A stretch of 64,000 nucleotides of DNA from a virus, in the IMG/VR virus record IMGVR_UViG_3300027741_000023, positions 1 to 64,000 of that record; one strand, 5' to 3'. The notes under the pieces were generated by a model. It was not told the DNA's origin. It saw only the letters and a list, made by a program, of their open reading frames with translations, and ran no database searches. The position numbers were made by a program, and so were the translations under genes. Each line of letters begins with the position of its first letter. Position 1 is the first letter of the stretch. Below, in pieces: positions 5,739 through 37,187 of the stretch.

Positions 5739-5826
5739 AGTGTTGTACGCAATCCTGCGTCTTATGCGGTTTAACCCGCCGCGTAGAAGCTAGAACCTTC
5801 ATCGGACTTCTTTAAGGAGAAAACAA
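5739..5826 (+). promoter_or_regulatory. Structured 5' leader with strong ribosome site
   Basis: A perfect small hairpin (arms 5747-5751 and 5756-5760, loop ATCC) is followed by a GC-rich element near 5766-5783. A strong Shine-Dalgarno site, TAAGGAG, stands seven bases before the ATG at 5827. Such leaders often stabilise abundant structural transcripts. Confidence 0.5.
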
Positions 5827-6642
5827 ATGGGACGTCCTCTTAAAATACAAAAATACAGTTTAAATACTGGTGTTGGTAGCCCTGGCGCCGCCACACCTGT
5901 GGATCTTGCTTATCCACCTTTCAGCGCACTGGATGTTCCAGTTTATAATGCACCCACGCAGACTCTAAATGCAGCACAGTTCTTGGGCGTGGTTGGCGGA
6001 TCACCTGCCACAAGCCAACCCAGTGCCACCTATCCTGAAGTGTTGGCCACGGTGAATATTCTATATCCTGATGGTAACACCACTGGTGCTGGTGCTGGTC
6101 GTATTATTCGACAGAAAGGCAATCACAAGTATTTGGTAGCTTATACAGCAGCCACAGTTTCCGATGGCAGTTTTACCGTGGGTCAAGCATATCAAATTGC
6201 TGTGCTAGGAACTACCAATTGGCAAACAGTTGGTACAGGAACTGGCAATGTGTCACCTGGCGATATTTTCACAGCCAGAGCAGCTGACGGCGGTGGCAAT
6301 GGAACCGCATACCCAGTAGGTGTGTGCATTTTGAGCAACACTGGTGCACCAGCAGGTGGTTACATGAGCATTGGTTACGAATCTGGTGACAGCTCAGACG
6401 CTTACGCTAGCAATCTCAGCAACAAGTGGGTACGTGACTGGGCAGGAACTGCCGGCGATTACAGCAATGCTAATCTTGGTGAAGTCGACTACAGTAATGA
6501 ACTTTTCTATGTGGCCAACTTCTTTACAGACGAAGGTGGCGTTGCACAGTCAGGTTCAGAAACAGATACTGCTACAGAATCGGTTGCAGGTGCACCGGCT
6601 GGTTACATTCCATTGGCAGTTATTGACAATGTTACTTCCTAA
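5827..6642 (+). CDS. Structural / decoration-like protein
   Basis: A 271-residue protein beginning MGRPLKIQKY, then mostly Gly/Ala/Thr/Ser with beta-strand character and only a few Cys. It has no catalytic motif. The segment VAYTAATVSDGSFTVGQAY followed by TVGTGTGNVSPGDIF looks like a small beta-sandwich insertion. Late promoter, long structured leader and strong ribosome site suggest high late expression, and a strong terminator follows directly. It is most likely a virion surface or head decoration component; exact location unknown. Confidence 0.55.
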   Translation: MGRPLKIQKYSLNTGVGSPGAATPVDLAYPPFSALDVPVYNAPTQTLNAAQFLGVVGGSPATSQPSATYPEVLATVNILYPDGNTTGAGAGRIIRQKGNHKYLVAYTAATVSDGSFTVGQAYQIAVLGTTNWQTVGTGTGNVSPGDIFTARAADGGGNGTAYPVGVCILSNTGAPAGGYMSIGYESGDSSDAYASNLSNKWVRDWAGTAGDYSNANLGEVDYSNELFYVANFFTDEGGVAQSGSETDTATESVAGAPAGYIPLAVIDNVTS

Positions 6643-6691: not shown

Positions 6692-7279
6692 ATGACCGTG
6701 GCATTTGTTTTGGGAAATGGGCAGAGTAGAACTGCATTGGATTTGACCAGATTTCGATCTCTAGGATCTATCTATGGCTGCAATGGCTTGTATAGAGACC
6801 ACACGCCAGACTGTCTTGTGGCAACTGATCGTCCAATAGCAGAAGAAATACAACGGTCAGGATACAGTAAAAATCATAGATTTTACACAAGAAAACCACT
6901 GCCGGATTTGGGTGCAAATGTAGTTCCTAGAAAGTACCATGGCAATAGTTCGGGTCCTATTGCCTGTGCAATTGCTGCGCTGGACGGGCATGATCGTATC
7001 TATATGTTGGGATTTGACATGGGACCCAGCCCATCCATGCGATTTAACAATGTGTATGCTGGCACAGCATTTTACAAAAGTGCAGATGCTGCACCAACTT
7101 ACACAGGCAATTGGATACGTCAGGTTGTTACATTGATAAAAGATTTCTCAACTACTAAATTTATTCGTGTTTGCGGACCCACTACAGCAGAAATCAAAGA
7201 GTTCAAGAATATTGAAAATTTTGAACACATAGATATCAACACATTCCAGTATCGTGTAGATACCAATCACGAGCTGTAG
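6692..7279 (+). CDS. DUF115/sialyltransferase-like Rossmann protein
   Basis: A 195-residue protein with FVLGNGQSR at the N terminus (nucleotide-binding-like loop), GSIYGCNGLYRDHTPDCLVA near 25-45, and YMLGFDMGP near 110. This arrangement occurs in small phage proteins related to motility-accessory-factor (DUF115) or CMP-sugar transferase folds. The NSSGPIACAIAA segment resembles the SG-rich donor loop. The start is preceded by GGGAGG inside a terminator. The setting between a structural protein and the giant fibre makes glycan or fibre modification attractive, but this is inference. Confidence 0.5.
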   Translation: MTVAFVLGNGQSRTALDLTRFRSLGSIYGCNGLYRDHTPDCLVATDRPIAEEIQRSGYSKNHRFYTRKPLPDLGANVVPRKYHGNSSGPIACAIAALDGHDRIYMLGFDMGPSPSMRFNNVYAGTAFYKSADAAPTYTGNWIRQVVTLIKDFSTTKFIRVCGPTTAEIKEFKNIENFEHIDINTFQYRVDTNHEL

Positions 7280-7323: not shown

Positions 7324-10300
7324 ATGACACAATACACCATTGATATTGGCGCAGTACCCGATGACGGACAAGGTGATCCGTTACGTACTGCCTTTAGTTA
7401 CACTAATCAAAACTTTGATCAAGTTTTTGCTGCGGGCCCAGTGCTGAGCAATGTAGCCATAGCCAACAACACTATTCGCACAATCAACAGCAATGGTAAC
7501 TTGATCCTGTCGCCAAACGGCATTGGCAAAATACAAGTAACAAATACTGTAATCCCCAGCTGGGACAATGTGTACGATCTAGGTAGCCCAACTTTACGAT
7601 TCAATTCAATCTATATAGGATCTGGTGGATTGAATATTCCCAGTATCAGTGTTACTGGGAATATCAGTGCTAATAATTTTCTAGCATCTGGAATAGTATC
7701 GGCCGCAGGTAATATCACTGGTAATTATTTCTTAGGAAACGGGGCTTTCTTAAGTGGTGTTATTACCTCAGTTGCTAATATCAACAATGGATCATCCAAT
7801 GTAACTGTGGTTAGCTCTGGCGGTAATATCACAGTAAGTGTGGGCGGAATTTCTAATGTAGCAGTTTTTGATACTACTGGGTTGTTGGTAGCAGGAAATA
7901 TCACCAGCGGCAATCTAAGTTCTCTTGGTCTAGTAACTGTTACTGGGAATGTGACAGCAGCCGGATTTTACTATGCAAATGGTGATCCCGTGGCAGGATC
8001 CGGAGCTCAAGGTACACAAGGCGTACAAGGTACTCAAGGCGTACAGGGTGTTCAAGGCGTACAGGGTGTTCAAGGCGTTGAGGGATTACAAGGTGTACAA
8101 GGCATTCAGGGTGTTGAAGGATTGCAAGGTGTACAGGGTACACAAGGTGTTGAAGGATTACAAGGCGTACAGGGCACACAAGGTGTGCAGGGCGTTCAGG
8201 GCGTTCAGGGTACACAAGGTGTGCAAGGAGTACAAGGTGTTGAGGGATTACAGGGTGTACAAGGCGTACAGGGCACACAAGGCGTTCAGGGTACACAAGG
8301 CGTGCAAGGTACACAAGGCGTTCAAGGTATACAAGGCGTTCAAGGTATACAAGGCGTTCAAGGCGTACAGGGTACACAAGGCGTTCAAGGCGTACAGGGT
8401 ACACAAGGCGTTCAAGGTGTTCAAGGCACACAAGGCGTACAAGGCGTACAGGGCCCTCAAGGCGTGCAAGGTACACAAGGTGTTCAGGGTGTTCAGGGTA
8501 CACAAGGTGTTCAGGGTACACAAGGTGTGCAAGGCATACAAGGTACACAAGGTGTTCAAGGCGTACAGGGTACACAGGGCGTAGTAGGTCCAGGCAATAC
8601 TATAAATGCCACTGACAATAACACAACCACTACATTGTATCCTGTAATGGTAGGTGCTGCTGGTAGCAATCAATTGGCCAATGTCACAACTGCTGGATTT
8701 GTATTCAATGCACAAACCAATGCATTGTCAGTTGCTGGAAATGTGTCAGCTGGTAATCTAGTTCTTACAACAGGTAATCTAACACTCAGCAATGTTAACG
8801 TAAATTCCAGTACCAGTGCAATTCAAGGCTGGAGTTATTCAAACGTTAGCTTGTCAACTGCTGCATCCGAATCTAACGGTACTGGACTTTTCTTTGGTAA
8901 CGCAGGCTCAAGTTTTTATCTAGTTGGTACTACGAATGATCGTGTGTTTCAATACAACATGTCAACTACCAATATGGCCAACACTGGCACAGTGTTTGGT
9001 AATGTTAGTGTAACCACACAAGATGGCAGTCCCAATGACTTGTTTATTGACAGTACTGGTGCTAACTTGTATGTGTTGGGGCAAACCAGTAGATCTGTGT
9101 ATCAATACACCATGGCGACGCCATGGAATATTACCACAGCCACATATGCAACACTAAGCGCCAACGTTTCAGCACAAGACTCTGCGCCATCTGGATTGTG
9201 GTTCAGACCTGATTTGACCACAATGTACATGGTTGGTACTACCAACAGCACAGTTTATCAATACACATTGTCTACTCCAGGCAATATTGCCACAGCCGCT
9301 TACGCTAACAAATCATTTAATACCACCAGTTCTGCTGGAGGCAGCACACATGCAGTTAATTTAAGCAGTGACGGCGCCAAGATGTGGGTCACAGCCCAAA
9401 ACATACCTGCTTTTTATGAGTACAATCTTGCCACACCATGGGATGTAAGCACAGCAACTTTTGCATTGGGAAATAGTTTTGGTATACTGGCACAAGAAAG
9501 CACGCCCACTGGCATATTTGTTGACTTGGCCAATAGTCGAGCTTGGATGATTGGTACTGCCGCCGATACTGTTTTTCAATATAACACAGCCAATTCTATC
9601 ATGCTCACTGCCAATGCTGTGGGTATTCAAGGACAATTGGCAGTTCAAGGTAACACTTGGTTTGGTCAACAAGTACAACTTGGCGGTGCAGTAAGAGCAG
9701 AATCCACATTCACAGTTGATAGTACATTCACGGCTGGAAGTACATTTACTGTTAGTACCACAACAGGCACAATCAGTATTGGAACAAGCCAAACAACTGG
9801 CACAACCACAATTGGTGCCACTGCCCAAACTGGTAATATCTTAATTGGGCAATCCACAGCCACACAAATCTTGAACATTGGTATAGGTGCCACATCCAGT
9901 GGTAACATCAAGACAATCAATATTGCTGCCAATGGTGTTGCAAACTCAATCAGCAATGTGACAATTTTCAGTAATGTGGCAGGCAATTCAACATTGACCA
10001 TTGGTGCAAGCACTGGTAATACCACAGTGAGTTACACTGCCAATACCGCAGTTGCTATTGCCAACGTTTCGAACACAGCACTGAGCGTGGCAGGGAATGT
10101 ACAAGCGGGTAATTATGTTGCAGCAAGTGGCGGATTTTTTGGCTCGCTTTTATCTACAACCGGAACAGTAACTTTTGCCACAACTCTTTCAACTATTAAT
10201 ATCGGTACTGGACAATTAACACCAGCACTCACGTTAGGTGGACCTATACAAACTGGTACAATCACCGTTGGGCAATCGAATGCAACACAAATTTTGGCAA

Positions 10301-13300
10301 TTGCCAATGGTGCGACCACATCGGGCAATACCAAAACCATCAGCATTGGTGAAAATGGCGCAGCCAACTCCACTACCACAATCTCAGTAGGTCCTGGTCT
10401 TGGCAATGGCACAGTTACCTTTGGGTCAAACACAACTGTAAACATATCAAACACATCAGGCACAGCACTAAGTGTGGCTGGTAATATTTCTGTAGCTGGT
10501 AATATACAAGCAGCCGGATTTACCTACGCCAACGGCACTCCTGTAGCAGGATCAGGTGCTCAAGGCACACAGGGTGTTCAAGGCGTACAGGGCAGACAAG
10601 GTGTGCAGGGTGTTCAAGCTGCCCAAGGAACACAAGGCACACAAGGCACACAAGGCGTACAGGGCGTTCAAGGTACAACCGGCGCTCAAGGCGTACAGGG
10701 CGTGCAAGGCGTACAAGGCGTGCAGGGCACCACTGGCGCTCAAGGTACAACAGGTGCTCAAGGCGTTCAAGGTACTCAAGGTGTACAAGGTACTCAAGGC
10801 GTTCAAGGTGTAACTGGCACACAAGGCACACAAGGTGTACAGGGCGTTCAAGGTGTACAAGGCGTTCAAGGTGTAACTGGCACACAAGGCGTTCAAGGTA
10901 CTACCGGTGCACAAGGCACTCAGGGTGTTCAAGGCACACAAGGTGTTCAAGGATTACAAGGCGTTCAAGGCACACAAGGTGTTCAAGGTACACAAGGTGT
11001 ACAAGGCGTGCAAGGTACACAAGGTGTACAAGGTGTACAGGGCGTTCAAGGCACACAAGGTGTTCAAGGTACTACTGGCGCTCAGGGCACTCAAGGATTA
11101 CAAGGCGTTCAGGGTGTACAGGGCGTTCAAGGATTACAAGGCGTTCAAGGATTACAAGGCGTTCAAGGCACACAAGGTGTACAGGGCGTTCAAGGATTAC
11201 AAGGCGTTCAAGGCACACAAGGTGTACAGGGCGTTCAAGGCACACAAGGTGTACAGGGCGTTCAAGGATTACAAGGCGTTCAAGGCACACAAGGTGTACA
11301 GGGCGTTCAAGGCACACAAGGTGTTCAAGGTACTACTGGCGCTCAGGGCACTCAAGGTGTTCAAGGCATTCAAGGTACACAGGGCGTTCAAGGATTACAA
11401 GGCGTTCAAGGATTACAAGGCGTTCAAGGCACACAAGGCGTTCAAGGCGTCCAGGGTGTAACTGGCACACAAGGTGTACAGGGCGTTCAAGGCACACAAG
11501 GTGTTCAAGGTACTACTGGCGCTCAGGGCACTCAAGGATTACAAGGCGTTCAGGGTGTACAAGCCGCACAAGGCACACAAGGCACACAAGGCACACAAGG
11601 CACACAAGGCGTTCAAGGTGTTCAGGGTACACAAGGCGTGCAGGGCACACAAGGCGTGCAGGGCACACAAGGCACACAAGGCGTTCAAGGTACACAAGGC
11701 GTTCAAGGTGTTCAGGGCATTCAAGGTACACAGGGCGTTCAAGGATTACAAGGCGTTCAAGGATTACAAGGCGTTCAAGGCACACAAGGTGTTCAAGGCG
11801 TCCAGGGTGTAACTGGCACACAAGGTGTACAGGGCGTTCAAGGCACTCAAGGATTACAAGGCGTTCAGGGTGTACAGGGCGTTCAAGGTGTACAAGCCGC
11901 ACAAGGCACACAAGGTGTTCAGGGTGTACAGGGTGTACAGGGCGTTCAAGGCACACAAGGCACACAAGGCACACAAGGCACACAAGGCACACAAGGCACA
12001 CAAGGCACACAAGGCACACAAGGCACACAAGGCACACAAGGCGTTCAAGGTGTTCAGGGTACACAAGGCGTTCAAGGTGTTCAGGGTACACAAGGCGTGC
12101 AGGGCACACAAGGCGTGCAGGGCACACAAGGCACACAAGGCGTTCAAGGTACACAAGGCGTTCAAGGTGTTCAGGGCATTCAAGGCGTACAGGGCGTTCA
12201 AGGATTACAAGGTACCCAAGGCGTGCAGGGCACACAAGGCACACAAGGCGTTCAAGGTGTTCAGGGCATTCAAGGTACACAGGGCGTTCAAGGATTACAA
12301 GGTACCCAAGGCGTGCAGGGTACACAAGGCGTTCAAGGTACACAGGGCGTTCAGGGTATACAAGGCGTTCAAGGTACACAAGGCGTTCAAGGCATTCAGG
12401 GCATTCAAGGTACACAGGGCGTTCAAGGATTACAAGGTACCCAAGGCGTCCAGGGTGTAACTGGCACACAAGGCACACAAGGTGTACAGGGCGTTCAAGG
12501 ATTACAAGGTGTACAGGGCATTCAAGGCGTACAGGGCATTCAAGGTGTACAGGGCATTCAAGGTACCCAAGGCGTCCAGGGTGTAACTGGCACACAAGGC
12601 TTACAAGGCGTTCAAGGCGTTCAAGGATTACAGGGTATCCAAGGTGTACAGGGCATTCAAGGATTACAAGGTGTACAGGGCGTTCAAGGATTACAAGGTG
12701 TTCAGGGCGTTCAGGGTATTCAAGGCGTACAAGGCGTTGAGGGATTACAAGGTGTACAGGGCGTTCAAGGATTACAGGGTATCCAAGGTGTACAGGGCAT
12801 TCAAGGTGTGCAAGGTGTACAGGGCATTCAAGGTGTACAGGGCATTCAAGGTACCCAAGGCGTCCAGGGTGTAACTGGCACACAAGGCACACAAGGTGTA
12901 CAGGGCGTTCAAGGTGTACAGGGCGTTCAAGGTGTACAGGGTGTACAAGGTACGCAAGGATTAGCTGGTCCTAGCACTACCATAAACGCTACTGATGTTA
13001 CATCAGGAACATTATATCCTGTGATGGTGGGTGCTAGTGGCTCAAATCAAACTGCCAACGTTGATACTGTTGGATTATCTTTTACTGCCACTGGTAATAT
13101 ACTTTCTATAGCTGGCAATGTTGTTGGTGGAAATGTTAAAACTGCTGGTATAGTAAGTGCTGTGGGAAATCTATACACCTCCAACGCGGTAACATACAGC
13201 GATACTTCCAACATTGCCGGTTGGTGGGCTAGCAACAGCTTGAGCATTCTTGCTCAGGACGCATCTGCAACCGATGTGTTTTTCAACAGTAGTGGTAATA

Positions 13301-16300
13301 CCATGTTCTTGTTGGGTAGTGCAAACCGTGCAGTTTATCAATACAATGTTGCTACTCCTTGGGCGGTGGCCACAGCTTCTTACGCCAGTTTAAGTTCCAA
13401 TGTGAATGGACAGGCTACCAGTCCTCAAGGATTTTGGTTCAACAGCAGTGGCAACACCATGTTTGTGCTGGACACAACCACTCGTATTGTGTTCCAATAC
13501 GGTATCAGCAACGTTGCCAATATTGCCACAGCTTCTTACTCTAATCTAAGCGCAAACATCAGTGCTCAAGAAACTGCACCAACTGGAGTGACATTCAGTC
13601 CTGATGGTGCCAACATGTATATTGTTGGAACTACTAACGATACTATCTATCAGTACACAGTCAGCAATGTCGCCAACATTGCCACAGCCGCGTATGCTAA
13701 CAAATCTCTGAGTGTAAGTGCTCAAGATGGTGCACCAAGTGGAGCAACGTTCAACAGCACAGGAACTGTGTTATGGTTACTTGGTAATAGTAATAGAAAC
13801 ATCAGTCAATATCAGTTATCTGTACCTTATGATATCAGCACTGGCGTATATTCTAATAATTATTTTAACGTGGGGTTCCAAGAGGCCACACCAACTGGGA
13901 TATATGTTAATCTAGCCAACAACTCAGTATATGTTTCTGGGTCAACCACGGATCGAGTTTGGCAATATGATACTGGTAATAGTACCATTGTTAACTCTAA
14001 CTCGCTGGGCATACTGGGATATGCTCACATTGTAGGTAATCTACAAACCAATAACATTCAAGCAGTTGGCGGAATAAACGTGGTCGGATCAATAAGCGCC
14101 ACTAGCACACTGACTGCTGGTACAGCTGTCACGTTTAGTACAACCACTAGTGCTATCAACATTGGTACCAGTCAGACCACTGGTGTAATAGCTCTGGGAG
14201 GTACTGCTCAAACTGGTATAATCACAGTTGGCAGATCAACTGCGACACAAACACTTTATATTGCCAATGGTGTGACCACATCGGGCAATACCAAAACTAT
14301 TAGTATTGGCGAAAATGGTGCAGCTAACTCCACTACCACAATCTCAGTAGGACCAGGACTTGGTAATGGCACAGTCACCTTTGGGTCAAACACCACAGTA
14401 CTCATATCAAACACATCAGGCACAGCATTGAGTGTGGCTGGTAATATATCTGCTGCCGGTAATGTACAAGCTGCTGGATTTACCTACGCCAACGGCACTC
14501 CTGTAGCAGGATCAGGTGCTCAAGGTGTTCAGGGTGTACAAGGCACACAGGGTGTACAAGGCGTTCAAGCCGCCCAGGGCACACAAGGCGTTCAAGGTGT
14601 GCAGGGTACACAAGGCGTTCAAGGCGTGCAAGGCACACAAGGCGTTCAAGGTACCCAAGGCGTACAAGGCACACAAGGCGTTCAAGGCCCACAAGGTGTT
14701 CAGGGCACACAAGGTGTTCAAGGCACACAAGGTGTTCAAGGCACACAAGGTGTGCAAGGCGTTCAGGGTGTTCAAGGCCCACAAGGTGTTCAAGGCGTTC
14801 AGGGTACACAAGGCGTCCAGGGTGTTCAAGGCGTTCAGGGTACACAAGGCGTCCAGGGTGTTGAAGGCCCACAAGGTGTTCAGGGCGTTCAAGGCGTCCA
14901 GGGTACGCAAGGCGTTCAAGGTACACAAGGTGTACAGGGCATCCAAGGTACTCAAGGTGTACAGGGCATCCAAGGTACTCAAGGTGTACAGGGCATCCAA
15001 GGTACTCAAGGTGTGCAAGGCGTTCAGGGTACACAAGGTGTACAGGGCATCCAAGGTACTCAAGGTGTACAGGGCATCCAAGGTACTCAAGGTGTACAGG
15101 GCATCCAAGGTACTCAAGGTGTGCAAGGCGTTCAGGGTACACAAGGTGTACAGGGCATCCAAGGTACTCAAGGTGTACAGGGCATCCAAGGTACTCAAGG
15201 TGTACAGGGCATCCAAGGTACTCAAGGTGTGCAAGGCGTTCAGGGTACACAAGGTGTACAGGGCATTCAAGGATTACAAGGCGTACAGGGCACGCAAGGC
15301 GTACAGGGTACGCAAGGCGTACAGGGCATCCAAGGCCCACAAGGTGTGCAAGGCGTTCAGGGTACACAAGGTGTACAGGGCATCCAAGGCCCACAAGGCG
15401 TACAGGGCACACAAGGCGTTCAAGGTATACAAGGCGTTCAGGGTACGCAAGGCGTACAAGGTACGCAAGGCGTACAGGGCATCCAAGGCCCACAAGGTGT
15501 TCAAGGTACACAAGGTGTTCAAGGTACACAAGGCGTACAGGGCATCCAAGGCGTACAAGGCGTACAAGGCGTTGAGGGATTACAAGGTGTACAGGGCGTT
15601 CAAGGTGTACAGGGCATTCAAGGTACACAAGGTACACAAGGTACACAAGGTACACAAGGTGTTCAGGGTACACAAGGCACACAAGGTGTAACTGGCGCTC
15701 AAGGTACACAAGGCGTTCAAGGTACACAAGGCGTTCAAGGTACACAAGGCGTTCAAGGTACACAAGGCGTTCAAGGTGTACAGGGCGTTCAAGGTGTACA
15801 GGGTGTACAAGGTACGCAAGGATTAGCTGGTCCTAGCACTACTATAAACGCTACTGATGTTACATCAGGCACATTGTATCCTGTGATGGTAGGTGCTAGT
15901 GGCTCAAATCAAACTGCCAACGTTGATACTGTTGGATTGTCCTTCACTGCCACTGGCAATATACTTTCTGTGACAGGTATTGTAAACACAGCCAGCTATA
16001 CTGGTGATGTAGTCAGTGTTACAGGCAGTGTTACTAGTGGAACAGTAAATGGCGGCAACGCCTCTATCACTGGCAATGTACAAGCAGATGGTTATACAGG
16101 TGGAAACTTATCTGTAACTGGTAGGGTTGATGCTACAACCCTAAGTGCGACGGGTTCTGTAAATTCACCATCATACACTGGCACTAACATGTCACTGTCC
16201 GGTATTGTGCAAGCAACATCTTTTACAGGCACTACAATCACCAGTACCGGTGCTTTGAATTTAAACCCTAGCGGCAATGTGGTATTGAAAGCTAACACAT

Positions 16301-19300
16301 ACATCAATAATCTTGCTATGCCTGTACAAGATTATGATGCAGCAACTAAGTTATACGTTGATAATTTTGCCACAACTGGGATAACATTTCACCAGCCAGT
16401 GTATGCAGCTACCACAACCACTCTGGAAACAGCTACCAGTGGTACCATAACTTATAACCAACCCAATGGAGCAGGTAATGGCGTAGGTGCCACATTAAAA
16501 ACTACTGGTGTATTCAATCTTATTGACGGAGCCAATATTCAAACTGTAGGCACACGGGTATTGGTGCAAAATCAGGCCAATGGCGTACAGAATGGTGTGT
16601 ATACCTATGCCAACACCACTGCTATTATACGTTCCTCAGACACTGATCAATACGGAGCAAACAGCACAGAAGAAATCAGTATCAACGACTATTTCTTTGT
16701 GCAAAGTGGAAATGTCAATGCTGGCGCTGCATTTGTTGTGAGTTCGCCATCTGGTACAATCACATTTGGTACCAGTAACATACAGTTTGCAGAATTCAGC
16801 AGAAGTCAAGTGTACACTGCAAATACCTCCGCTGGATTGACTTTGGTAGGCACAGTGTTCAGTGCCAAGGTAGACAACACAACCACAGCATTTGATGGAA
16901 CAGGAAACATTGTTGTTAAAACCAGTGCTAACTTAACAACCCCTAACATTGGTGCTGCCACCGGTACTAGCCTAAGCACTACTGGTAATGTTACCACCGC
17001 TGGTATTGTGGCCACTGGTAATATTTCAACCACAGGGAATGTACAAGGGGGTAATTTTGTTGCAACTGGCGGATTTCTTGGATCTAGTATATCTGTAAAT
17101 GGTGGGGTAAATTTTAGTGCTACCTCATCTAATATCAATATTGGTACCAGCTTACTTGCTTCGTTACTTGTATTAGGTGGTGTATCACAAACCGGTGCGA
17201 TACAAGTTGACAGATCAACTGTGACACACACTCTGGCAATTGCCAATGGTGTGACCACATCAGGCAACACCAAAACCATTAGCATTGGTGAAAATGGCGC
17301 AGCTAACTCCACTACCACAATCTCAATAGGACCAGGACTTGGCAATGGTACTGTTACATTTGGTTCAAACACCACAGTAAACATATCAAACACATCAGGC
17401 ACAGCATTGAGTGTGGCTGGTAATATATCTGTGGCTGGTAATGTAAAAGCAGCAGGATTTACCTACGCCAACGGCACTCCTGTAGCAGGATCAGGTGCTC
17501 AAGGAACTCAAGGTGTGCAGGGTCTCCAAGGTGTGCAAGGTGTGCAAGCTGCCCAAGGCACACAAGGCGTACAGGGTACACAAGGCGTACAGGGCACACA
17601 AGGCGTACAGGGTGTACAGGGTGTTCAAGGTACAATTGGCGCACAGGGCACAACCGGCGCTCAAGGCGTACAAGGCGTACAAGGTGTTCAAGGTGTTCAG
17701 GGTACTCAAGGCGTACAAGGCGTACAAGGTGTTCAAGGTACTCAAGGCGTGCAGGGCACACAAGGTACACAAGGCGTTCAAAGCACACAAGGTGTTCAAG
17801 GTGTTCAGGGTACTCAAGGCGTGCAGGGCACACAAGGTACACAAGGCGTTCAAGGCACACAAGGTGTTCAAGGCACACAAGGCACACAAGGCACACAAGG
17901 TGTTCAAGGCACACAAGGCGTGCAGGGCGCACAAGGTACACAAGGCGTTCAAGGCGTACAAGGTGTTCAAGGTGTTCAGGGTACTCAAGGCGTACAAGGC
18001 GTACAAGGTGTTCAAGGTGTTCAAGGTGTTCAGGGTACTCAAGGCGTGCAGGGCACACAAGGTACACAAGGCGTTCAAGGCACACAAGGCGTGCAGGGCA
18101 CACAAGGTACACAAGGCGTTCAAGGCACACAAGGCGTACAAGGCACACAAGGCGTACAAGGCACACAAGGTGTTCAAGGCACACAAGGCACACAAGGCAC
18201 ACAAGGCGTACAAGGCGTTCAAGGCACACAAGGTGTTCAAGGCACACAAGGTGTTCAAGGCGTCCAGGGTGTAACTGGCACACAAGGTGTACAGGGCGTT
18301 CAAGGCACACAAGGTGTTCAAGGTACTACTGGCGCTCAGGGCACTCAAGGATTACAAGGAGTTCAGGGTGTACAGGGCGTTCAAGGCGTTCAAGGCGTGC
18401 AGGGCACACAAGGTGTTCAAGGCACACAAGGTGTTCAAGGCATTCAAGGTGTAACTGGCGCTCAAGGTGTTCAAGGCACACAAGGTGTTCAGGGCACACA
18501 AGGTGTTCAGGGCATACAAGGTACTCAAGGTGTTCAAGGCACACAAGGTGTTCAGGGCACACAAGGCGTTCAAGGCGTGCAGGGCACACAAGGTGTAACT
18601 GGCGCACAAGGCACCACTGGTGCTCAGGGCACACAAGGCGTGCAGGGCACACAAGGCGTTCAAGGCGTGCAGGGCACACAAGGTGTTCAAGGCACACAAG
18701 GTGTAACTGGCGCACAAGGCACCACTGGTGCTCAGGGCACACAAGGTGTACAAGGCGTACAAGGCGTACAGGGTACACAAGGTGTCCAAGGCACACAAGG
18801 CACCACTGGTGCTCAGGGCACACAAGGCGTGCAGGGCACACAAGGCGTTCAAGGCGTGCAGGGCACACAAGGTGTTCAAGGCACACAAGGCGTGCAGGGC
18901 ACACAAGGCGTGCAGGGCACACAAGGCGTTCAAGGTGTTCAAGGCACACAAGGCACCACTGGTGCTCAGGGCACACAAGGTGTACAAGGCGTACAAGGCG
19001 TACAAGGCGTACAGGGTACACAAGGTGTCCAAGGCACACAAGGAGTAACTGGCGCACAAGGCACCACTGGTGCTCAGGGCACACAAGGCACACAAGGCGT
19101 GCAGGGCACACAAGGTGTTCAAGGCACACAAGGCGTGCAGGGCACACAAGGTGTTCAAGGCACACAAGGCGTTCAAGGTGTTCAAGGCACACAAGGCGTT
19201 CAAGGCGTGCAGGGCACACAAGGTGTAACTGGCGCACAAGGCACCACTGGTGCTCAGGGCACACAAGGTGTACAAGGCGTACAAGGCGTACAAGGCGTAC

Positions 19301-22300
19301 AGGGTACACAAGGTGTCCAAGGCACACAAGGAGTAACTGGCGCACAAGGCACCACTGGTGCTCAGGGCACACAAGGTGTACAAGGCGTACAAGGCGTACA
19401 GGGTACACAAGGTGTTCAGGGCGTGCAGGGCACACAAGGTGTTCAGGGCACACAAGGTGTTCAGGGCACACAAGGCGTGCAGGGCACACAAGGTGTTCAA
19501 GGCACACAAGGCGTGCAGGGCACACAAGGTGTTCAAGGCACACAAGGCGTTCAAGGCGTGCAGGGCACACAAGGCGTGCAGGGCACACAAGGCGTTCAAG
19601 GCGTGCAGGGCACACAAGGTGTAACTGGCGCACAAGGCACCACTGGTGCTCAGGGCACACAAGGTGTACAAGGCGTACAAGGCGTACAAGGCGTACAGGG
19701 TACACAAGGTGTCCAAGGCACACAAGGAGTAACTGGCGCACAAGGCACCACTGGTGCTCAGGGCACACAAGGTGTACAAGGCGTACAAGGCGTACAGGGT
19801 ACACAAGGTGTTCAGGGCGTTCAAGGCGTAACTGGCGCTCAGGGTGTGCAAGGTCGGCAAGGTGTGCAAGGCACACAGGGTGTACAAGGCGTACAAGGCG
19901 TCCAGGGCGTTCAAGGCGTCCAGGGTACGCAAGGATTAGCTGGACCTAGTACCACTATAAACGCTACTGATGTTGTCACAGGCACATTGTACCCTGTGAT
20001 GGTAGGTGCTAGTGGCTCAAATCAAACTGCCAACGTTGATACTGTTGGATTGTCCTTCACTGCCACTGGTAATATACTTTCAGTGACAGGTATTGTAAAC
20101 ACAGCCAGCTATACTGGTGATGTAGTCAGTGTTACAGGCAGTGTTACTGGCGCAAACTTGTATGCAGGCAGCGCCACTATCACTGGCAATGTACAAGCAG
20201 ATGGTTATACAGGTGGAAACTTATCTGTAACTGCCGCAGTTTATAGTACAGATGTAAGCGCATTAGGCACTATAAATTCACCATCATACACTGGCACTAA
20301 CATGTCACTGTCCGGTATTGTGCAAGCAACATCTTTTACAGGAACTACAATATCAGTTAGTGGAGGCATAACAGGCACTACGATAACACTTACTAATCCA
20401 GGTGCATTAGTGGCCAACGCTAACAATGCAGGTATGGAACTAGGAAATGTTGCAGCAGTTAATACTCCATATATTGACTTCCACAGCAGTGGTAATAGCA
20501 CCTTGGATTATGATTCAAGAATCATAGCCAGCGGCGGCAACATAGGCAGAGCAGCTGGAACTGGCACGTTAAGCATTATTGGTTCAATTTTTCAAGTATC
20601 AGGAAATATTTCCGCTGTGGGCAATGTGCAAGCAGCTGGATTTACCTATGCTAATGGTGTTGCAGTGTCTACTCAGGGCACACAAGGCACACAAGGTGTT
20701 CAAGGTGTACAAGGCGTTCAGGGTGTGCAAGCTGCACAAGGCACTCAAGGTGTTCAAGGTACACAGGGCACACAAGGTGTGCAAGGCCGTCAAGGTGTAC
20801 AGGGTGTTCAAGCTGCCCAGGGAACACAAGGCGTACAGGGTGTACAGGGTGTACAGGGCGTTCAAGGTACAACCGGCGCTCAAGGCGTACAGGGCGTACA
20901 GGGCGTACAGGGCGTGCAAGGAGTACAAGGTGTACAAGGCGTGCAGGGCACCACTGGCGCTCAAGGTACAACAGGTGCTCAAGGCGTTCAAGGTGTGCAA
21001 GGTGTGCAAGGCGTAACTGGCGCACAAGGTGTGCAAGGCGTACAAGGTGTAACTGGCGCACAAGGCACACAAGGTGTGCAAGGTGTACAAGGCGTTCAAG
21101 GTGTGCAAGGTGTGCAAGGTGTGCAAGGTGTAACCGGTGCTCAAGGTACAACTGGCGCTCAAGGTGTGCAAGGAGTACAAGGTGTACAAGGCGTTCAAGG
21201 TGTGCAAGGCGTTCAAGGTGTGCAAGGTGTGCAAGGTGTAACCGGTGCTCAAGGTACAACTGGCGCTCAAGGTGTACAAGGCGTTCAAGGTGTGCAAGGT
21301 GTAACCGGTGCTCAAGGTACAACTGGCGCTCAAGGTGTGCAAGGAGTACAAGGTGTACAAGGCGTTCAAGGTGTGCAAGGTGTAACTGGTGCTCAAGGTA
21401 CTACTGGCGCTCAAGGCACAACAGGTGCTCAAGGCGTGCAAGGCGTACAAGGCGTGCAGGGTGTAACTGGTGCTCAAGGTACTACTGGCGCTCAAGGCAC
21501 AACAGGTGCTCAAGGTGTGCAAGGCGTGCAAGGTGTGCAAGGTGTACAAGGCGTTCAAGGTGTGCAAGGTGTAACCGGTGCTCAAGGTACAACTGGCGCT
21601 CAAGGTGTGCAAGGAGTACAAGGTGTACAAGGCGTTCAAGGTGTGCAAGGTGTAACTGGTGCTCAAGGTACTACTGGTGCCCAAGGCACAACTGGTGCTC
21701 AAGGCGTGCAAGGCGTGCAAGGTGTGCAAGGTGTAACTGGTGCTCAAGGTACTACTGGCGCTCAAGGTACTACTGGCGCTCAAGGTGTGCAAGGCGTGCA
21801 AGGTGTGCAAGGCGTACAAGGCGTACAAGGCGTGCAGGGTGTAACTGGTGCTCAAGGTACTACTGGCGCTCAAGGTGTGCAAGGTGTGCAAGGTGTGCAA
21901 GGCCGCCAAGGTGTACAAGGTGTGCAAGGTGTAACTGGTGCTCAAGGTACTACTGGCGCTCAAGGCACAACAGGTGCTCAAGGTGTGCAAGGCGTACAAG
22001 GCGTACAAGGCGTGCAGGGTGTAACTGGTGCTCAAGGTACTACTGGCGCTCAAGGTGTGCAAGGCGTGCAAGGTGTGCAAGGCGTACAAGGCGTGCAAGG
22101 TGTGCAAGGTGTAACTGGTGCTCAAGGTACTACTGGCGCTCAAGGTGTGCAAGGTGTGCAAGGTGTGCAAGGCGTACAAGGCGTGCAAGGTGTGCAAGGT
22201 GTAACTGGTGCTCAAGGTACTACTGGCGCTCAAGGCACAACAGGTGCTCAAGGTGTGCAAGGCGTACAAGGCGTACAAGGCGTGCAGGGTGTAACTGGTG

Positions 22301-24855
22301 CTCAAGGTACTACTGGCGCTCAAGGTGTGCAAGGCGTGCAAGGTGTGCAAGGCGTACAAGGCGTGCAAGGTGTGCAAGGTGTAACTGGTGCTCAAGGTAC
22401 TACTGGCGCTCAAGGTGTGCAAGGTGTGCAAGGTGTGCAAGGCGTACAAGGCGTGCAAGGTGTGCAAGGTGTAACTGGTGCTCAAGGTACTACTGGCGCT
22501 CAAGGCACAACAGGTGCTCAAGGTGTGCAAGGTGTGCAAGGCGTACAAGGCGTGCAGGGTGTAACTGGTGCTCAAGGTACTACTGGCGCTCAAGGCACAA
22601 CAGGTGCTCAAGGTGTGCAAGGCGTGCAAGGCGTACAAGGCGTGCAGGGTGTAACTGGTGCTCAAGGTACTACTGGTGCTCAAGGTACTACTGGCGCTCA
22701 AGGCACAACAGGTGCTCAAGGTGTGCAAGGTGTGCAAGGCGTACAAGGCGTGCAGGGTGTAACTGGTGCTCAAGGTACTACTGGCGCTCAAGGTGTGCAA
22801 GGCGTGCAAGGTGTGCAAGGCGTACAAGGCGTTATTGGAACCGGATATTCAGGTTTAACTTCCGCATCAAGTGCTACAATTGCCAGTTCGGGGTCAATTG
22901 CCTTTACAACCAATTTGGCAGTAACCGCCACAGCATTCACAGTTGGTGAACGAGTTCGTGTGTTCAACACAGCCACACCTGCCAACTTCATGGAAGGCTC
23001 AATCACTGGATTTACTGGTGTCAATTTGACATTTGCACCTACCAACAGTGGTGGTTCGGGCACATTCTCTGCTTGGACATTTGTAGCAGCAGGCTTGCAA
23101 GGTACTCAAGGCGTTCAAGGTGTAACTGGCGCTCAAGGTATTACTGGCGCTCAAGGCACAACTGGTGCTCAAGGCGTGCAAGGCGTGCAAGGTACACAAG
23201 GTGTAACTGGTGCTCAAGGTATTACTGGCGCTCAAGGCACAACTGGTGCTCAAGGCGTGCAAGGCGTGCAAGGTACACAAGGTGTAACTGGTGCTCAAGG
23301 TACTACTGGCGCTCAAGGCACAACAGGTGCTCAAGGTGTGCAAGGTGTGCAAGGTGTGCAAGGCGTGCAGGGTGTAACTGGTGCTCAAGGCACAACCGGC
23401 GCTCAAGGTGTGCAAGGAGTACAAGGTGTACAAGGCGTACAAGGCGTGCAAGGTGTGCAAGGTGTAACCGGTGCTCAAGGTGTAACCGGTGCTCAAGGTA
23501 CTACTGGTGCCCAAGGCACAACTGGTGCTCAAGGCGTGCAAGGCGTGCAAGGTGTGCAAGGTGTAACTGGTGCTCAAGGTACTACTGGCGCTCAAGGCAC
23601 AACAGGTGCTCAAGGTGTGCAAGGCGTGCAAGGTGTGCAAGGCGTGCAGGGTGTAACTGGTGCTCAAGGTACTACTGGCGCTCAAGGTGTGCAAGGCGTG
23701 CAAGGCGTACAAGGCGTACAAGGCGTTATTGGAACCGGATATTCAGGTTTAACTTCCGCATCAAGTGCTACAATTGCCAGTTCGGGGTCAATTGCCTTTA
23801 CAACCAATTTGGCAGTAACCGCCACAGCATTCACAGTTGGTGAACGAGTTCGTGTGTTCAACACAGCCACACCTGCCAACTTCATGGAAGGCTCAATCAC
23901 TGGATTTACTGGTGTCAATTTGACATTTGCACCTACCAACAGTGGTGGTTCGGGCACATTCTCTGCTTGGACATTTGTAGCAGCAGGCTTGCAAGGTACT
24001 CAAGGCGTTCAAGGTGTAACTGGCGCTCAAGGTACTACTGGCGCTCAAGGTACCACCGGTGCTCAAGGCACTCAAGGCGTTCAAGGTGTAACTGGCGCAC
24101 AAGGAACAACTGGCGCTCAAGGTACCACCGGTGCTCAGGGCACACAAGGTACTCAAGGCGTTCAAGGTGTAACTGGCGCACAAGGAACAACTGGTGCTCA
24201 AGGCACAACCGGCGCTCAAGGCACACAAGGTGTAACTGGCGCACAAGGCACAACCGGTGCTCAAGGCGTACAAGGCGTTCAAGGCGTTCAAGGTACACAA
24301 GGTTTAGCTGGACCTAGCACTACCATAAACGCTGCCAATATTACCACAGGTACAATGTATCCTGTGATGGTAGGTGGTTCAGGATCAAATCAAGCTGCCA
24401 ATGTTGACACAACTGGGTTGTCGTTTGATGCTTCAACTAATATACTTTCAGTATTAGGAAACATTCTTGTGGGTCCATTTACAACGTCGGTTGCAAAAAG
24501 ACTCACAGTGGTTGGTGAAGGTTCATTTACAGACGCAAGTAATAACATTAGATTGTACATGGGATATGGAACTATTCCAGGTACTGGGTCAACCGGCGCA
24601 TACGTATTCAACCAAGACAATTCACCTTTGGCACTTGGTACAAATAATATATCAAGAGTGCTGGTTGATACAAACGGTAATGTTGGTATTGCTAATTCAT
24701 CACCAACTACCACACTTGGTGTTACTGGTAATGCATATGTTAGTGGTAACATCACCGCAGGGAATTATTTGAACCTAGCAAACAACTCGGGCGGAGTGTC
24801 AGGACACATGGTATACAATCCAACTTTGATCAGTATAGATTTTACTTTTAATTAA
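7324..24855 (+). CDS. Giant collagen-like tail fibre, 5843 aa
   Basis: One uninterrupted frame of 17.5 kb. Residues 1-226 form a fibre head ([12 protein letters not shown]... [14 protein letters not shown]... [12 protein letters not shown]). Seven tracts of Gly-X-Y follow, about 3300 residues or 57% of the protein, mostly Gly-(Val/Thr/Ile/Leu/Ala)-Gln and Gly-Thr-Thr, nearly free of proline. Between them lie two ~240-residue sections each with five propeller-like repeats (S-x-D/N-G...LY-V/L-G-T-T-x-x-x-V-Y-Q-Y), repeated beta-rich linkers, a unit beginning [10 protein letters not shown] typical of tail fibres, and an ~85-residue module present twice. The last ~180 residues are globular ([20 protein letters not shown]). 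No autochaperone was recognised. Likely a trimeric fibre of extreme length, expressed late. Confidence 0.85.
8002..8592 (+). repeat. Collagen-like tract 1 (197 aa)
   Basis: In-frame 9-base units encode Gly-Val-Gln, Gly-Thr-Gln, Gly-Ile-Gln and occasional Gly-Leu-Gln with Val-Glu at the preceding step. It ends GVVGPGN. Residues 227-423 of the giant fibre. Confidence 0.9.
8869..9590 (+). repeat. Propeller-like repeats, set 1
   Basis: Five ~45-residue repeats with the core [14 protein letters not shown] or close variants, spaced by TP-W-N/D-I/V-(S/T)-T-A segments. This resembles the blades of a beta-propeller; a sixth blade may be completed from the ends. Residues ~516-756. Confidence 0.6.
10555..12972 (+). 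repeat. Collagen-like tract 2 (806 aa)
   Basis: Gly-X-Gln triplets with ten consecutive Gly-Thr-Gln units near 11950-12039. Gly-to-Ala breaks (VQAAQG) occur near 10618, 11569 and 11896. It ends [12 protein letters not shown], a linker reused after tracts 3, 4 and 7. Confidence 0.9.
13240..13975 (+). repeat. Propeller-like repeats, set 2
   Basis: Five repeats such as [30 protein letters not shown] and [15 protein letters not shown], clearly duplicated from set 1 at 8869. Spacing and linker composition are the same. Confidence 0.6.
14515..15834 (+). repeat. Collagen-like tract 3 (440 aa)
   Basis: Gly-X-Gln triplets including long blocks of Gly-Ile-Gln-Gly-Thr-Gln and some Gly-Pro-Gln, the only tract with noticeable proline. 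A nearly perfect ~90-base higher-order repeat runs from about 14930 to 15250. One Gly-to-Ala break lies near 14569. Confidence 0.9.
17494..19947 (+). repeat. Collagen-like tract 4 (818 aa)
   Basis: The longest tract. Gly-Thr-Gln, Gly-Val-Gln and Gly-Val-Thr-Gly-Ala-Gln-Gly-Thr-Thr units form higher-order repeats between 18590 and 19800. A single Gly-to-Ser change (codon AGC at 17782) interrupts it, and an Ala break occurs near 17549. Confidence 0.9.
20677..22836 (+). repeat. Collagen-like tract 5 (720 aa)
   Basis: Dominated by Gly-Val-Gln runs punctuated by [12 protein letters not shown]. DNA is highly repetitive with ~180-base periodicity from 21470 onward. A few Gly-Arg-Gln triplets supply charge. 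Confidence 0.9.
22831..23145 (+). repeat. Long direct repeat, copy A (85-aa beta module)
   Basis: Encodes [20 protein letters not shown] and a continuing beta-rich module ending [11 protein letters not shown]. By eye it is identical to 23725-24039 over roughly 310 bases, including the start of the following collagen tract. The offset is 894 bases. Confidence 0.85.
23092..23730 (+). repeat. Collagen-like tract 6 (213 aa)
   Basis: Gly-X-Y tract between the two copies of the 85-residue module, rich in Gly-Val-Thr-Gly-Ala-Gln-Gly-Thr-Thr. Confidence 0.9.
23725..24039 (+). repeat. Long direct repeat, copy B
   Basis: Second copy of the module at 22831, apparently identical in DNA. The lack of drift indicates recent duplication or gene conversion. 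Confidence 0.85.
23986..24315 (+). repeat. Collagen-like tract 7 (110 aa)
   Basis: Final Gly-X-Y tract, mainly Gly-Ala-Gln-Gly-Thr-Thr, ending [12 protein letters not shown] before the C-terminal globular part. Confidence 0.9.
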
Positions 24856-24864: not shown

Positions 24865-26823
24865 ATGGCAAATGTTGTGATAGCTTTAACATCATCTGGA
24901 AAATGGCAGGTGCCTGCTGATTGCAATTCTATCCAGATTGAATTAATTGCTAGTGGTGGTGGTTACGATACCATTGAGGATATTGCAGGAGGTGGCGGCG
25001 CATACACTAAACTTACTGGATTTTCTGTAACCCCGGGCCAGACCCTTACTTATGCCACACAAAACCCTACTTGGATAAGCAATACTGGGGGAGTACCAAC
25101 AAACACATCACAAGGCGCAAAAGCAGCAGGGACGACAGGAAGTTATGGACAAGTAGGCGGTGCAGCGGCAGATTGCATTCCTTCAGTAGGTGCTTTTTCT
25201 GGCGGAAATGGCGGATTTCTAAATGGGTGCGGCGGCGCTGCTGGCCCAAATGGAAATGGTGGTAGTGGAGGACCCAGTAACGGCGTACTTGGTGGCGGAG
25301 GTGGTGGTGCAAATGGAGGCTCTAACGGCGGCTACGGTACAGGTGGTGATGGCAGAGGTGGAACTGGTGGTGGAACTGCCGGAGTTAACGGAACTACAGG
25401 AACAGGTGGAGGAGGTGGTGGACAACCCTCCGCCGCTGTTTCTTCGGGGGGAGGAGCGCAGGACAATGTTTGGACCGACTACCTAAATAACGTTTACGGT
25501 CCAGGTGGTGGCGCCGGAGGAATAATAGCAACTTCATCAGGTTCAGTTATTGGTGTGGGAGTAGGCTATGGAGGAGGTTATAGTATAAACCAGGGCCTAA
25601 TTATTATTACCTACACACCCGTGGCAATAACAGGAGGCCCGTATACCGAAGTCTTTACTCTTCCATACTACTCAACTACCGCCATTCCTTGGCGCACTCC
25701 TTTGGGAGTTACTTCTGTACAGGTAGAGGCCATTGGAGGTGGCGGCATTCCTTTAGACGCTATTTCTGGGCGCGGCGGCGGCGGTGGTGCCTATGCAAAA
25801 ACTACCTCACTAGCTGTAACACCAGAAAATATAGCATATGTTCGCCCTGCGTATACACCTGTATTTGGCACACAAGTTTATGCAACACCAATTGACTCTT
25901 GGTTCAACAGAAACGCCAATACCGCGCCCGCGCCGGGCGATACGTCTGCTGGGCTTCTTGCAGCCGGCGCGGCATCAGGACTTGGAGGAACAGCAGCAAA
26001 TTGCATTGGGGTAGACTTAAAGTACAGCGGTGGCAATGGCGGCTTAAACAATACCACAGCTTCGGGTGGTAAATTCCGCGGCGGCGGTGGCGGTGGCGCA
26101 GCAGGGCCAAGTGGTGCTGGTAAGGACGGCGGTAATGGCTGGCCCACTGGCACTGGTTCAGGCACAGGCGGTGGAGGAGGAGGCTCAAATGGTGGCTCCT
26201 CTACTGCTGGGCAAACAGCACCCAGCGCCACTGTTGGTGGCGCTGGGGGCAATGGTACTGGTGGCTTAGGCGGCGGTGCAGGTGGAACGGCCACCACCAA
26301 TGCTGTTGCAGGAACAGCAAACACAGGTGGCGGCGGTGGTGGCGGTAGCGCAAGTGCAACAGGTTTTAGGACTGATGGTAAGCCTGGCGCCGCATCAACG
26401 GTATGGACCATTGGCGGCGTAAATTATGGTCCTGCTGGTGGAGCAGGCGGAGCAGGGGCCACTACAAGCACAACAGGACAAGCAGGATATCATGATCTTG
26501 ATATCAACTTTGGTGCTGGAGCAGGTTCGGGCAACCCAGCAGGTTTTGTAGGAAGCAGTACCCGGGGCCTCGTGATCATCACCTACAGCGCAGTATCGGC
26601 AATACCAGCAATATCAGCAAGATTGTTCAGTACTGGCACGCTGGCAATAGCAAACACAATGCAATTTAATGAAATTGCGCAAAACAATGCATCTATACAG
26701 TCAAATGTGGTGTATTCCAGTCTGTTTGATGAAGTATCTCAATCTGCTGTGGCCATGAGAATATTGAGCAACGGGTCAATTCAAGTGTCAAACATCTTTG
26801 ATGAAGTCACCGGTATCTCTTGA
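24865..26823 (+). CDS. Glycine-rich fibre/adhesin with duplicated domain
   Basis: A 652-residue protein made of two related halves (~1-255 and ~262-580). Each starts with a short strand set (KWQVPADCNSIQIELIASGG; IPWRTPLGVTSVQVEAIGGG), passes through GGGGAY(A/T)K and VTP, continues as very Gly-rich stretches, and ends GL(I/V)IITY. This is the phage glycine-rich adhesin domain whose Gly runs can pack as polyglycine-II helices, as in gp38-type tips. The final ~70 residues have two similar FNEIAQNN / FDEVSQS / FDEVTG repeats. AGGA lies nine bases before the ATG and ten bases separate it from the giant fibre, so co-translation is likely. Probable receptor-binding or tip protein. Confidence 0.7.
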   Translation: MANVVIALTSSGKWQVPADCNSIQIELIASGGGYDTIEDIAGGGGAYTKLTGFSVTPGQTLTYATQNPTWISNTGGVPTNTSQGAKAAGTTGSYGQVGGAAADCIPSVGAFSGGNGGFLNGCGGAAGPNGNGGSGGPSNGVLGGGGGGANGGSNGGYGTGGDGRGGTGGGTAGVNGTTGTGGGGGGQPSAAVSSGGGAQDNVWTDYLNNVYGPGGGAGGIIATSSGSVIGVGVGYGGGYSINQGLIIITYTPVAITGGPYTEVFTLPYYSTTAIPWRTPLGVTSVQVEAIGGGGIPLDAISGRGGGGGAYAKTTSLAVTPENIAYVRPAYTPVFGTQVYATPIDSWFNRNANTAPAPGDTSAGLLAAGAASGLGGTAANCIGVDLKYSGGNGGLNNTTASGGKFRGGGGGGAAGPSGAGKDGGNGWPTGTGSGTGGGGGGSNGGSSTAGQTAPSATVGGAGGNGTGGLGGGAGGTATTNAVAGTANTGGGGGGGSASATGFRTDGKPGAASTVWTIGGVNYGPAGGAGGAGATTSTTGQAGYHDLDINFGAGAGSGNPAGFVGSSTRGLVIITYSAVSAIPAISARLFSTGTLAIANTMQFNEIAQNNASIQSNVVYSSLFDEVSQSAVAMRILSNGSIQVSNIFDEVTGIS

Positions 26824-26853: not shown

Positions 26854-28155
26854 ATGGCAAAATTACAAACCGGCACACGAATTTATGGAACAGCAAGCAC
26901 AGATAGCGTGTTGATTGTGGGTAATGTCACGCTCAGTAATTCTACCAGCACCACGTCTGGGTCATTACAAGTCACCGGCGGAACAGGTATCACTGGTAAC
27001 TTGTACATTGGTGGATTGGCCAATGCCACAGGTAATGTACAAGCAGCTGGATTCACCTACGCCAACGGTGTGGCAGTTGCTGGATCAGGCGCTCAAGGTA
27101 CTACCGGCGCTCAAGGTACTACCGGCGCTCAAGGCACAACCGGCGCTCAAGGCACAACCGGCGCTCAAGGCACAACCGGCGCTCAAGGCACAACCGGTGC
27201 TCAAGGCACACAAGGTGTGCAAGGCCGCCAAGGTGTACAAGGCGTACAAGGTGTAACCGGTGCTCAAGGCACAACCGGTGCTCAAGGCACACAAGGTGTA
27301 CAAGGCGTACAAGGTGTAACTGGCGCTCAAGGCACAACCGGCGCTCAAGGCACAACCGGTGCTCAAGGCACACAAGGTGTACAAGGTGTACAAGGTGTAA
27401 CCGGCGCTCAAGGCACAACCGGCGCTCAAGGCACAACCGGTGCTCAAGGCACAACCGGTGCTCAAGGTGTACAAGGTGTGGCAGGTCCGGGTACAAGCAT
27501 AAACGCCACTAACAATACCACAACCACTACATTGTATCCTGTGATGGTAGGTGCCGCTGGCAGTACTCAAGTTGCTAACGTTAACACAGCTGGATTTGTA
27601 TTTAATGCCTCGGCAAATTTGTTAACTTTGGGAGGAACAGCAGCGGCAAGTAGTGCTGTGTTAATTGTTGCAGGCAATATACAGACCAGTGCATCTAATA
27701 ATACAGCTAATATTGGTAATGTCACTAACTATTTCAACACTGTCCATGCCAAAGCAACCACAGCACAGTACGCTGACTTGGCCGAGATGTATACCACAGA
27801 TGCAGAATATGCTCCCGGCACGGTGATGATATTTGGCGGCAATCAAGAAGTCACTATCAATTCTGTAAGCCATGATTATAGAGTTGCCGGTGTGGTATCT
27901 ACCAATCCTGCACACATAATGAATTCTGGATTGCAAGGAGAATTCACAGTGGCAGTGGCACTGACCGGACGTGTGCCTGTGAGCGTGGTTGGTAACATTT
28001 CTGCAGGTGACCGAGTTGTGACCAGCAATCGAGCAGGTGTGGCCGAAGCATTGGATATGGTCAGATATCAACCGGGTGTGATTATTGGTAAGGCACTGCA
28101 ATCATACTGTGGGAACGGTGTGGGTGTGATTGAAGTGGTTGTGGGCAGACTGTGA
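26854..28155 (+). CDS. Collagen-like tail fibre with peptidase-G2-like C terminus
   Basis: A 433-residue paralogue of the giant fibre's parts. Residues 1-78 are the GNVTLSNST... [12 protein letters not shown] head; residues 79-212 are a 134-residue Gly-X-Y tract rich in Gly-Thr-Thr-Gly-Ala-Gln. Then comes the [16 protein letters not shown] linker. Residues ~310-433 (ATTAQYADLAEMY, HDYRVAGVVSTNPAHIMN, AGDRVV) match the pattern of the C-terminal domain often labelled peptidase G2 / autocleavage domain in phage appendages; assignment is by pattern only. That domain can act as a trimerisation chaperone and cut itself off. It may assist only this protein or the giant fibre too. Confidence 0.7.
   Translation: MAKLQTGTRIYGTASTDSVLIVGNVTLSNSTSTTSGSLQVTGGTGITGNLYIGGLANATGNVQAAGFTYANGVAVAGSGAQGTTGAQGTTGAQGTTGAQGTTGAQGTTGAQGTTGAQGTQGVQGRQGVQGVQGVTGAQGTTGAQGTQGVQGVQGVTGAQGTTGAQGTTGAQGTQGVQGVQGVTGAQGTTGAQGTTGAQGTTGAQGVQGVAGPGTSINATNNTTTTTLYPVMVGAAGSTQVANVNTAGFVFNASANLLTLGGTAAASSAVLIVAGNIQTSASNNTANIGNVTNYFNTVHAKATTAQYADLAEMYTTDAEYAPGTVMIFGGNQEVTINSVSHDYRVAGVVSTNPAHIMNSGLQGEFTVAVALTGRVPVSVVGNISAGDRVVTSNRAGVAEALDMVRYQPGVIIGKALQSYCGNGVGVIEVVVGRL
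27088..27489 (+). repeat. Collagen-like tract in the short fibre (134 aa)
   Basis: Gly-X-Y triplets, nearly all Gly-Ala-Gln, Gly-Thr-Thr and Gly-Val-Gln, closely matching tracts 5-7 of the giant fibre. Confidence 0.9.
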
Positions 28156-28178
28156 TTGTGCCGTAATTGAACAGATTT

Positions 28179-30841: not shown

Positions 30842-30842
30842 T

Positions 30843-35755: not shown

Positions 35756-35757
35756 GT

Positions 35758-37131: not shown

Positions 37132-37138
37132 AGTGTGT

Positions 37139-37144: not shown

Positions 37145-37152
37145 TGGGCAGG

Positions 37153-37181: not shown

Positions 37182-37187
37182 ACACAC

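Follow-up and report, generated by a model that had tools for sequence, protein, structure and literature searches.

A 5,843-Residue Collagen-Like Frame in the Tail Fibre Cluster of a Metagenome-Derived T4-Related Virus

The Locus and Layout of the Giant Gene

The 64,000-nucleotide stretch of DNA analysed here ("the window") has no N letters and belongs to a metagenome-derived record, G000, that is linear, partial and 157,083 bp long; it opens within one fibre gene and stops, on the right, partway through a second collagen-like ORF. The record encodes a tail sheath, a tail tube, the large terminase subunit (TerL) and a gp32-like single-stranded DNA binding protein. The tail sheath gene (41509..45117, + strand) marks a contractile-tailed phage, and its nearest counterparts, at about 42–46% identity, are those of Agrobacterium phage Atu_ph07, Sinorhizobium phage Phosso and Pseudomonas phage PA5oct. 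This is a large freshwater bacteriophage related to T4, a myovirus of the T4 superfamily. A circular or complete record was considered and rejected, since the ends do not overlap (the longest suffix with an earlier copy is 22 bp) and G000 shows no match to the gp23-type capsid gene of the relative G009; in G009 this gene and a T4-type prohead protease gene lie just upstream of the fibre region, and the lack of a match for either in G000 indicates that the record is an incomplete fragment.

Within the tail-fibre cluster of this phage, at 7324..24855 on the + strand, lies a single ATG-started frame of 17.5 kb with no internal stop codons, annotated from the ORF and its Pfam Collagen matches as a giant collagen-like tail-fibre gene. 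Its 5,843-aa product has a mass of ~562 kDa, no cysteine and 135 charged residues, and 57% of it (3,312 residues or 1,104 triplets) is Gly-X-Y sequence arranged in seven tracts, T1 to T7, whose lengths were counted so as to tolerate Gly->Ala and Gly->Ser interruptions. From the N-terminus onward, and all on the + strand, the order is as follows: a 226-aa N-terminal domain (7324..8001) that is kept in relatives and whose first 35 residues are gp10-like and are the proposed baseplate anchor; tract T1 (198 aa, 8002..8595); module M1 (653 aa, 8596..10554), which contains propeller P1 (~8770-9666); T2 (807 aa with three Gly->Ala sites, 10555..12975); M2 (513 aa, 12976..14514), which contains the five-bladed propeller P2 (~13102-14058); T3 (441 aa, one Gly->Ala, 14515..15837); M3 (550 aa, 15838..17487), a common phage-fibre module; T4 (821 aa, one Gly->Ala and one Gly->Ser, 17488..19950); M4 (245 aa, 19951..20685), which matches a tail fibre PHROG; T5 (720 aa, two Gly->Ala, 20686..22845); insert K1 (82 aa, 22846..23091); T6 (216 aa, 23092..23739); insert K2 (82 aa, 23740..23985), whose DNA is 100% identical to that of K1; T7 (111 aa, 23986..24318); and a C-terminal part of 178 aa (24319..24855). 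An earlier note on this DNA had described one unbroken frame with tracts of 197, 806, 440, 818, 720, 213 and 110 residues in a collagen-like fibre gene; the recount above, the Pfam matches and the fibre-cluster surroundings confirm that observation, and its interpretation is supported in part (below).

Two ORFs follow the giant gene on the same strand, a Gly-rich ORF of 652 aa (24865..26823) that is possibly a member of the fibre operon and a small second collagen-like fibre ORF of 433 aa (26854..28155), which carries the C-terminus ADLAEMY...EVVVGRL that closes the long fibres of some relatives. Upstream, a freshwater-2 RNA (Rfam RF02980, 70.1 bits; 5745..5829, +) immediately precedes the ORF at 5827-6642 and heads the fibre operon. 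It has the same place in five of the five syntenic relatives tested and occurs nowhere else in G000, and its position at the operon head here and in those five relatives ties this cis-regulatory motif to the phage fibre operon. At the left end of the window, the fibre-like ORF at 3-1166 (+), truncated by the end of the record, has in its C-terminal part a weak match to a Hint module (24.8 bits, below the curated cut-off of 29.7); a domain of intein-like or self-processing type may be present in this phage fibre. Beyond the window, a collagen-like fibre ORF rich in QAAQG and GIAAIQA interruptions occupies 153870-157082 of the record, which ends inside it. The genes at 60709-63999 and at 64-69 kb of the record look by eye like sugar-nucleotide and glycosyltransferase genes (e.g. 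60709-61686, MKHTAFITGMTGQDGPYLAKLL) and could form a surface-modification cluster.

Relatives of the Gene and the Reality of Its Length

The flanking gene order is kept in four relatives, G006 to G009, and we took as orthologues those fibres that lie downstream of the orthologue of window ORF 6692-7279. Fibres in IMG/VR records 3300011335_000731, 3300009184_002579, 3300042549_006660 and 3300027782_004387 share the locus and its neighbours, have N-termini 84-95% identical to that of the window gene, and carry collagen tracts with Gln in the Y position. The seven complete collagen-bearing orthologues are 938, 1,562, 1,862, 1,949, 1,997, 2,421 and 2,675 aa long with 101-428 triplets, and collagen-free fibres of 2,632 and 2,702 aa occupy the same locus in other relatives. 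None of the complete fibres found at this locus reaches half the length of the window gene. In the two nearest relatives (N-termini 95% and 87% identical), which also have the multi-tract architecture, the contigs end within collagen after 1,327 and 1,750 aa. Because the locus and the N-terminal virion anchor (whose docking is predicted) are conserved while the distal parts vary among relatives, the shaft is interchangeable.

The 60 distinct complete collagen-like frames in all fetched loci have a median length of 947 aa and 119 triplets. Of the 117 collagen-like frames in these loci, 57 are truncated where a contig or stretch ends, which suggests that such fibres are under-counted. The longest perfect run among the frames examined, 399 consecutive Gly-X-Y triplets, is in a 2,970-aa frame at ~152.5-161.4 kb of IMGVR_UViG_3300043399_000877.

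A frame of comparable size exists in an unrelated virus, G001 (IMGVR_UViG_3300022752_000020, 159,920 bp, 36.5% GC), where a 6,482-aa collagen-string ORF lies at 27848-47293 on the - strand. Like the window gene it strings adhesin-like modules and collagen tracts into a giant chain, with Val or Ile in X and Gln in Y; unlike the window gene, it has its 1,187 triplets in 31 short runs that alternate with W-rich modules, a CBM_5_12 domain in the N-terminal 1,000 aa (46.3 bits) and no propellers that we saw. Giant collagen-string fibres thus recur, although G001 is also metagenomic and so supports the kind of gene and not its exact length. The same virus has two giant collagen-free ORFs of 6,904 and 4,916 aa.

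Could the length of the window gene be an assembly artefact, in which an ordinary fibre of one to three thousand residues was extended by the chaining of internal or strain-shared repeats into an over-long frame? Repeat units of 9 bp would leave the frame open through mis-joins, the gene contains exact repeats of 347, 325, 239 and 239 bp that could be mis-joined, K1 and K2 are identical, the record itself breaks inside another collagen ORF, and the complete orthologues are all shorter. On the other hand, collapsing all exact repeats of at least 200 bp shortens the gene by only ~1.7 kb, modules M1 to M4 differ from one another, most of their paralogous stretches reaching 71-94% identity and not 100%, the two nearest relatives cross several tracts up to their contig ends, and the even longer G001 frame stands in an unrelated record. 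A simple tandem-repeat artefact in particular is opposed by the differing modules and by the distinctness of the 9-mers, which nevertheless leaves room for mis-joins: between neighbouring 9-mers the wobble positions, three per unit, vary in 54-68% of comparisons, but bases one and two of the Gly codon never do. This wobble variation around invariant Gly codon bases indicates that it is the protein pattern that is kept and not a DNA repeat. We regard an artefactual frame as unlikely, though it is the most serious of the alternatives considered here. The exact repeats leave ~1.7 kb of the gene length uncertain, the frame could be a chimera of strains living together, and the gene, which rests on one metagenome-derived record, is probably truly longer than ~5,000 aa.

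Composition and Conformation of the Collagen-Like Tracts

Of the 1,104 triplets, 1,096 (99.3%) have Gly in the first position, the others having Ala (7) or Ser (1). The X position is filled by Val (575), Thr (311), Ala (125), Ile (41), Leu (36), Pro (12) and Arg (4), and the Y position mainly by Gln (962, or 87%) and Thr (120); Lys and Arg are nearly lacking from the tracts. Triplets almost free of proline with Gln in the third position had been noted before, and these counts bear that description out; such a composition is usual among the relatives and is not special to the window gene. Pfam Collagen (PF01391) matches all five of the pieces scanned, with E values from 2.8e-31 to 1.8e-161. The longest perfect Gly-X-Y run, 240 triplets, lies in T4, and 200 shuffles of the same composition gave at most 8 consecutive positions with Gly at every third residue, so a chance or compositional origin of the pattern was rejected. 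The Gly->Ala sites are isolated, take the form QAAQG and are found in T2 to T5; sites of this form are also present in three relatives and in the collagen ORF that the record's right end cuts. In the PDB the best sequence match, the 'spindle/axial fibril' of 8zxl/9ius, is to a generic Gly-X-Y repeat, and resemblance among low-complexity collagens is uninformative on descent.

We infer that the tracts would coil up as triple helices of the collagen type. The alternative, that they form a different glycine-rich structure (such as a polyglycine-II type bundle) or disordered linkers, gains from the near lack of proline, the beta-branched Val in X and the seven Gly->Ala sites, and a search for a structure of any GVQ repeat found none. 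We nonetheless consider it improbable, as the perfect runs extend for up to 240 triplets without turn motifs, phage fibres are usually trimers, one relative keeps the Gln/Thr pattern in Y and places Pro in X, and the collagen tract of another phage fibre is triple-helical by circular dichroism (CD) and rotary shadowing (PMC3368898). If the tracts are triple helices, then such nearly Pro-free GVQ/GTQ sequences may have a low melting point.

The earlier note had estimated that the tracts laid end to end would reach about 0.9 micrometre. Collagen rises 2.9 Å per residue (PMC8968730), and the arithmetic stands (947 nm at 0.286 nm per residue); an end-to-end reach of that size is hypothetical, since folded modules and Gly->Ala sites break up the tracts. 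The value of ~0.95 micrometre is a ceiling for the fully extended contour and not a measured reach, and the real reach would be shorter because of bends at the modules and Gly->Ala sites.

The N-Terminal Anchor, Modules and Borders

Residues 4-35 of the giant protein align with residues 3-34 of T4 gp10 (32 residues, E = 3.5e-4), and the N-terminus matches the baseplate wedge family phrog_958 (E = 0.0012). The likeness to gp10, which is a 602-aa structural baseplate wedge protein without collagen, is confined to these residues and the remainder of gp10 is absent; for this reason the window protein was not filed as a gp10. An AlphaFold2 (AF2) model of the N-terminus was unusable (pLDDT 41), and a tblastn search with the N-terminus plus T1 against isolate phages gave no matches. 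The beta repeats at 7618-7980 in the N-terminal domain have a match in protein P22 of PDB 8h2i that spans many repeats and totals 1.3e-21, and this N-terminal fibre repeat thus also occurs outside this phage group.

Two sections of the gene had been called propeller-like, and both are upheld here: P1 and P2 score 27.1 and 36.7 bits, respectively, against the Pfam SGL family (cut-off 26.3), and an AF2 model of P2 built with two homologues is a five-bladed propeller, its four-stranded blades closing into a ring, with pLDDT mostly ~90. Among predicted viral structures the nearest to P2 are those of an uncultured marine virus protein (TM 0.78), followed by a protein of Lentibacter phage ICBM2 (TM 0.76) and a 'baseplate wedge subunit' protein (TM 0.73); PDB propellers give a general match only (TM ~0.5). 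M3 has matches in 106 fetched loci and is common among phage fibres. In Pfam and PHROG searches the 178-aa C-terminal part has no recognised chaperone or receptor domain, and Peptidase_S74 is absent from it at Pfam E<=1; the G009 orthologue, by contrast, ends in a Peptidase_S74 chaperone (34.1 bits). T1 to T5 are entered through a similar border of 16 residues, and T1 to T4 and T7 are left through a second common border of 33 residues; at the DNA level these borders, along with the module sequence next to them, share up to 94% identity.

The gp10-like N-terminus, the shorter syntenic orthologues, the fibre cluster near head and tail genes, and the propellers and fibre modules together argue for a tail fibre. 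A head-decoration or other non-tail virion fibre has a precedent in gp12 of SPP1, a collagen-like capsid protein (PMC7602432), and the G009 locus lies a few kb downstream of a gp23-type capsid gene. We think such a location very unlikely, however, given the baseplate-wedge-like N-terminus, the tail-fibre PHROG modules and the match of a cultured analogue, S-SCSM2R (below), to a baseplate connector. The suggestion that the protein is a host-surface mimic, or a cell-surface protein of some kind and not an adsorption fibre, found no supporting evidence, and fibre-cluster synteny, the baseplate-like anchor and modules common to other phage fibres make it scarcely credible.

Comparison with Known Collagen-Like Fibres

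The cultured cyanophages S-CRM01, DSL-LC02 and S-SCSM2R have, like the window virus, fibre genes with collagen tracts, but their main collagen fibres are smaller (376-971 aa, 60-134 triplets). In S-SCSM2R a gp10-like N-terminus is joined to collagen and matches the PHROG 'baseplate wedge tail fiber protein connector'. EPclA, a prophage fibre of E. coli O157:H7, has a shaft that CD and electron microscopy proved to be a collagen triple helix (PMC3368898); compared by description, EPclA and EPclB differ from the window protein in being short, with a single collagen tract, a coiled coil and PfN/PfC domains and no string of tracts and modules. No side-tail-fibre domain was found in the window gene in Pfam at E<=1. 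Fibres of the eBAP3 group of eCIS combine beta-propellers with collagen shafts, a flexible arrangement that was called as yet undescribed in the phage and virus literature (PMC12923769); they share propeller and collagen with the window gene but belong to contractile injection systems and not to phages. Our search of the open-licence literature found no phage collagen protein of comparable size. Collagen-like phage fibres are thus already known, and what is new here is the size and the many-bead string.

Proposed Function, Growth and Significance

We consider it likely that the gene encodes a giant, modular, baseplate-anchored homotrimeric tail fibre of a T4-superfamily myovirus, with collagen shafts between adhesin-like modules, that has been lengthened by cassette duplication. 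In such a fibre the N-terminus would dock three chains at the baseplate, the collagen triple helices would act as thin, semi-flexible spacers, and the propellers and C-terminal parts would serve as knobs that bind host glycans or other surface polymers, so that one fibre could hold many weak contacts. A receptor-probe role of this kind, which the earlier note had also proposed, is suggested by the anchor, the gene context and the domains. Growth could have come about by duplication of tract cassettes through recombination between the near-identical borders, together with slippage within tracts.

More tentatively, and with more doubt than confidence, we propose that large aquatic phages have repeatedly evolved collagen-string fibres of more than 5,500 aa, with a contour of ~1 micrometre and several propeller or carbohydrate-binding beads per trimer, which would act as multivalent sweepers of the surroundings of the cell and would be under-recorded by short-read assemblies as contigs break. 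If the length of the window gene is real, the contour of a single virion protein would exceed the length of a T4-size virion several times over, and the phage would possess an adhesin able to carry many binding beads far from the capsid. It would also provide a natural, nearly Pro-free collagen of ~1,100 triplets as a model for triple-helix stability without hydroxyproline.
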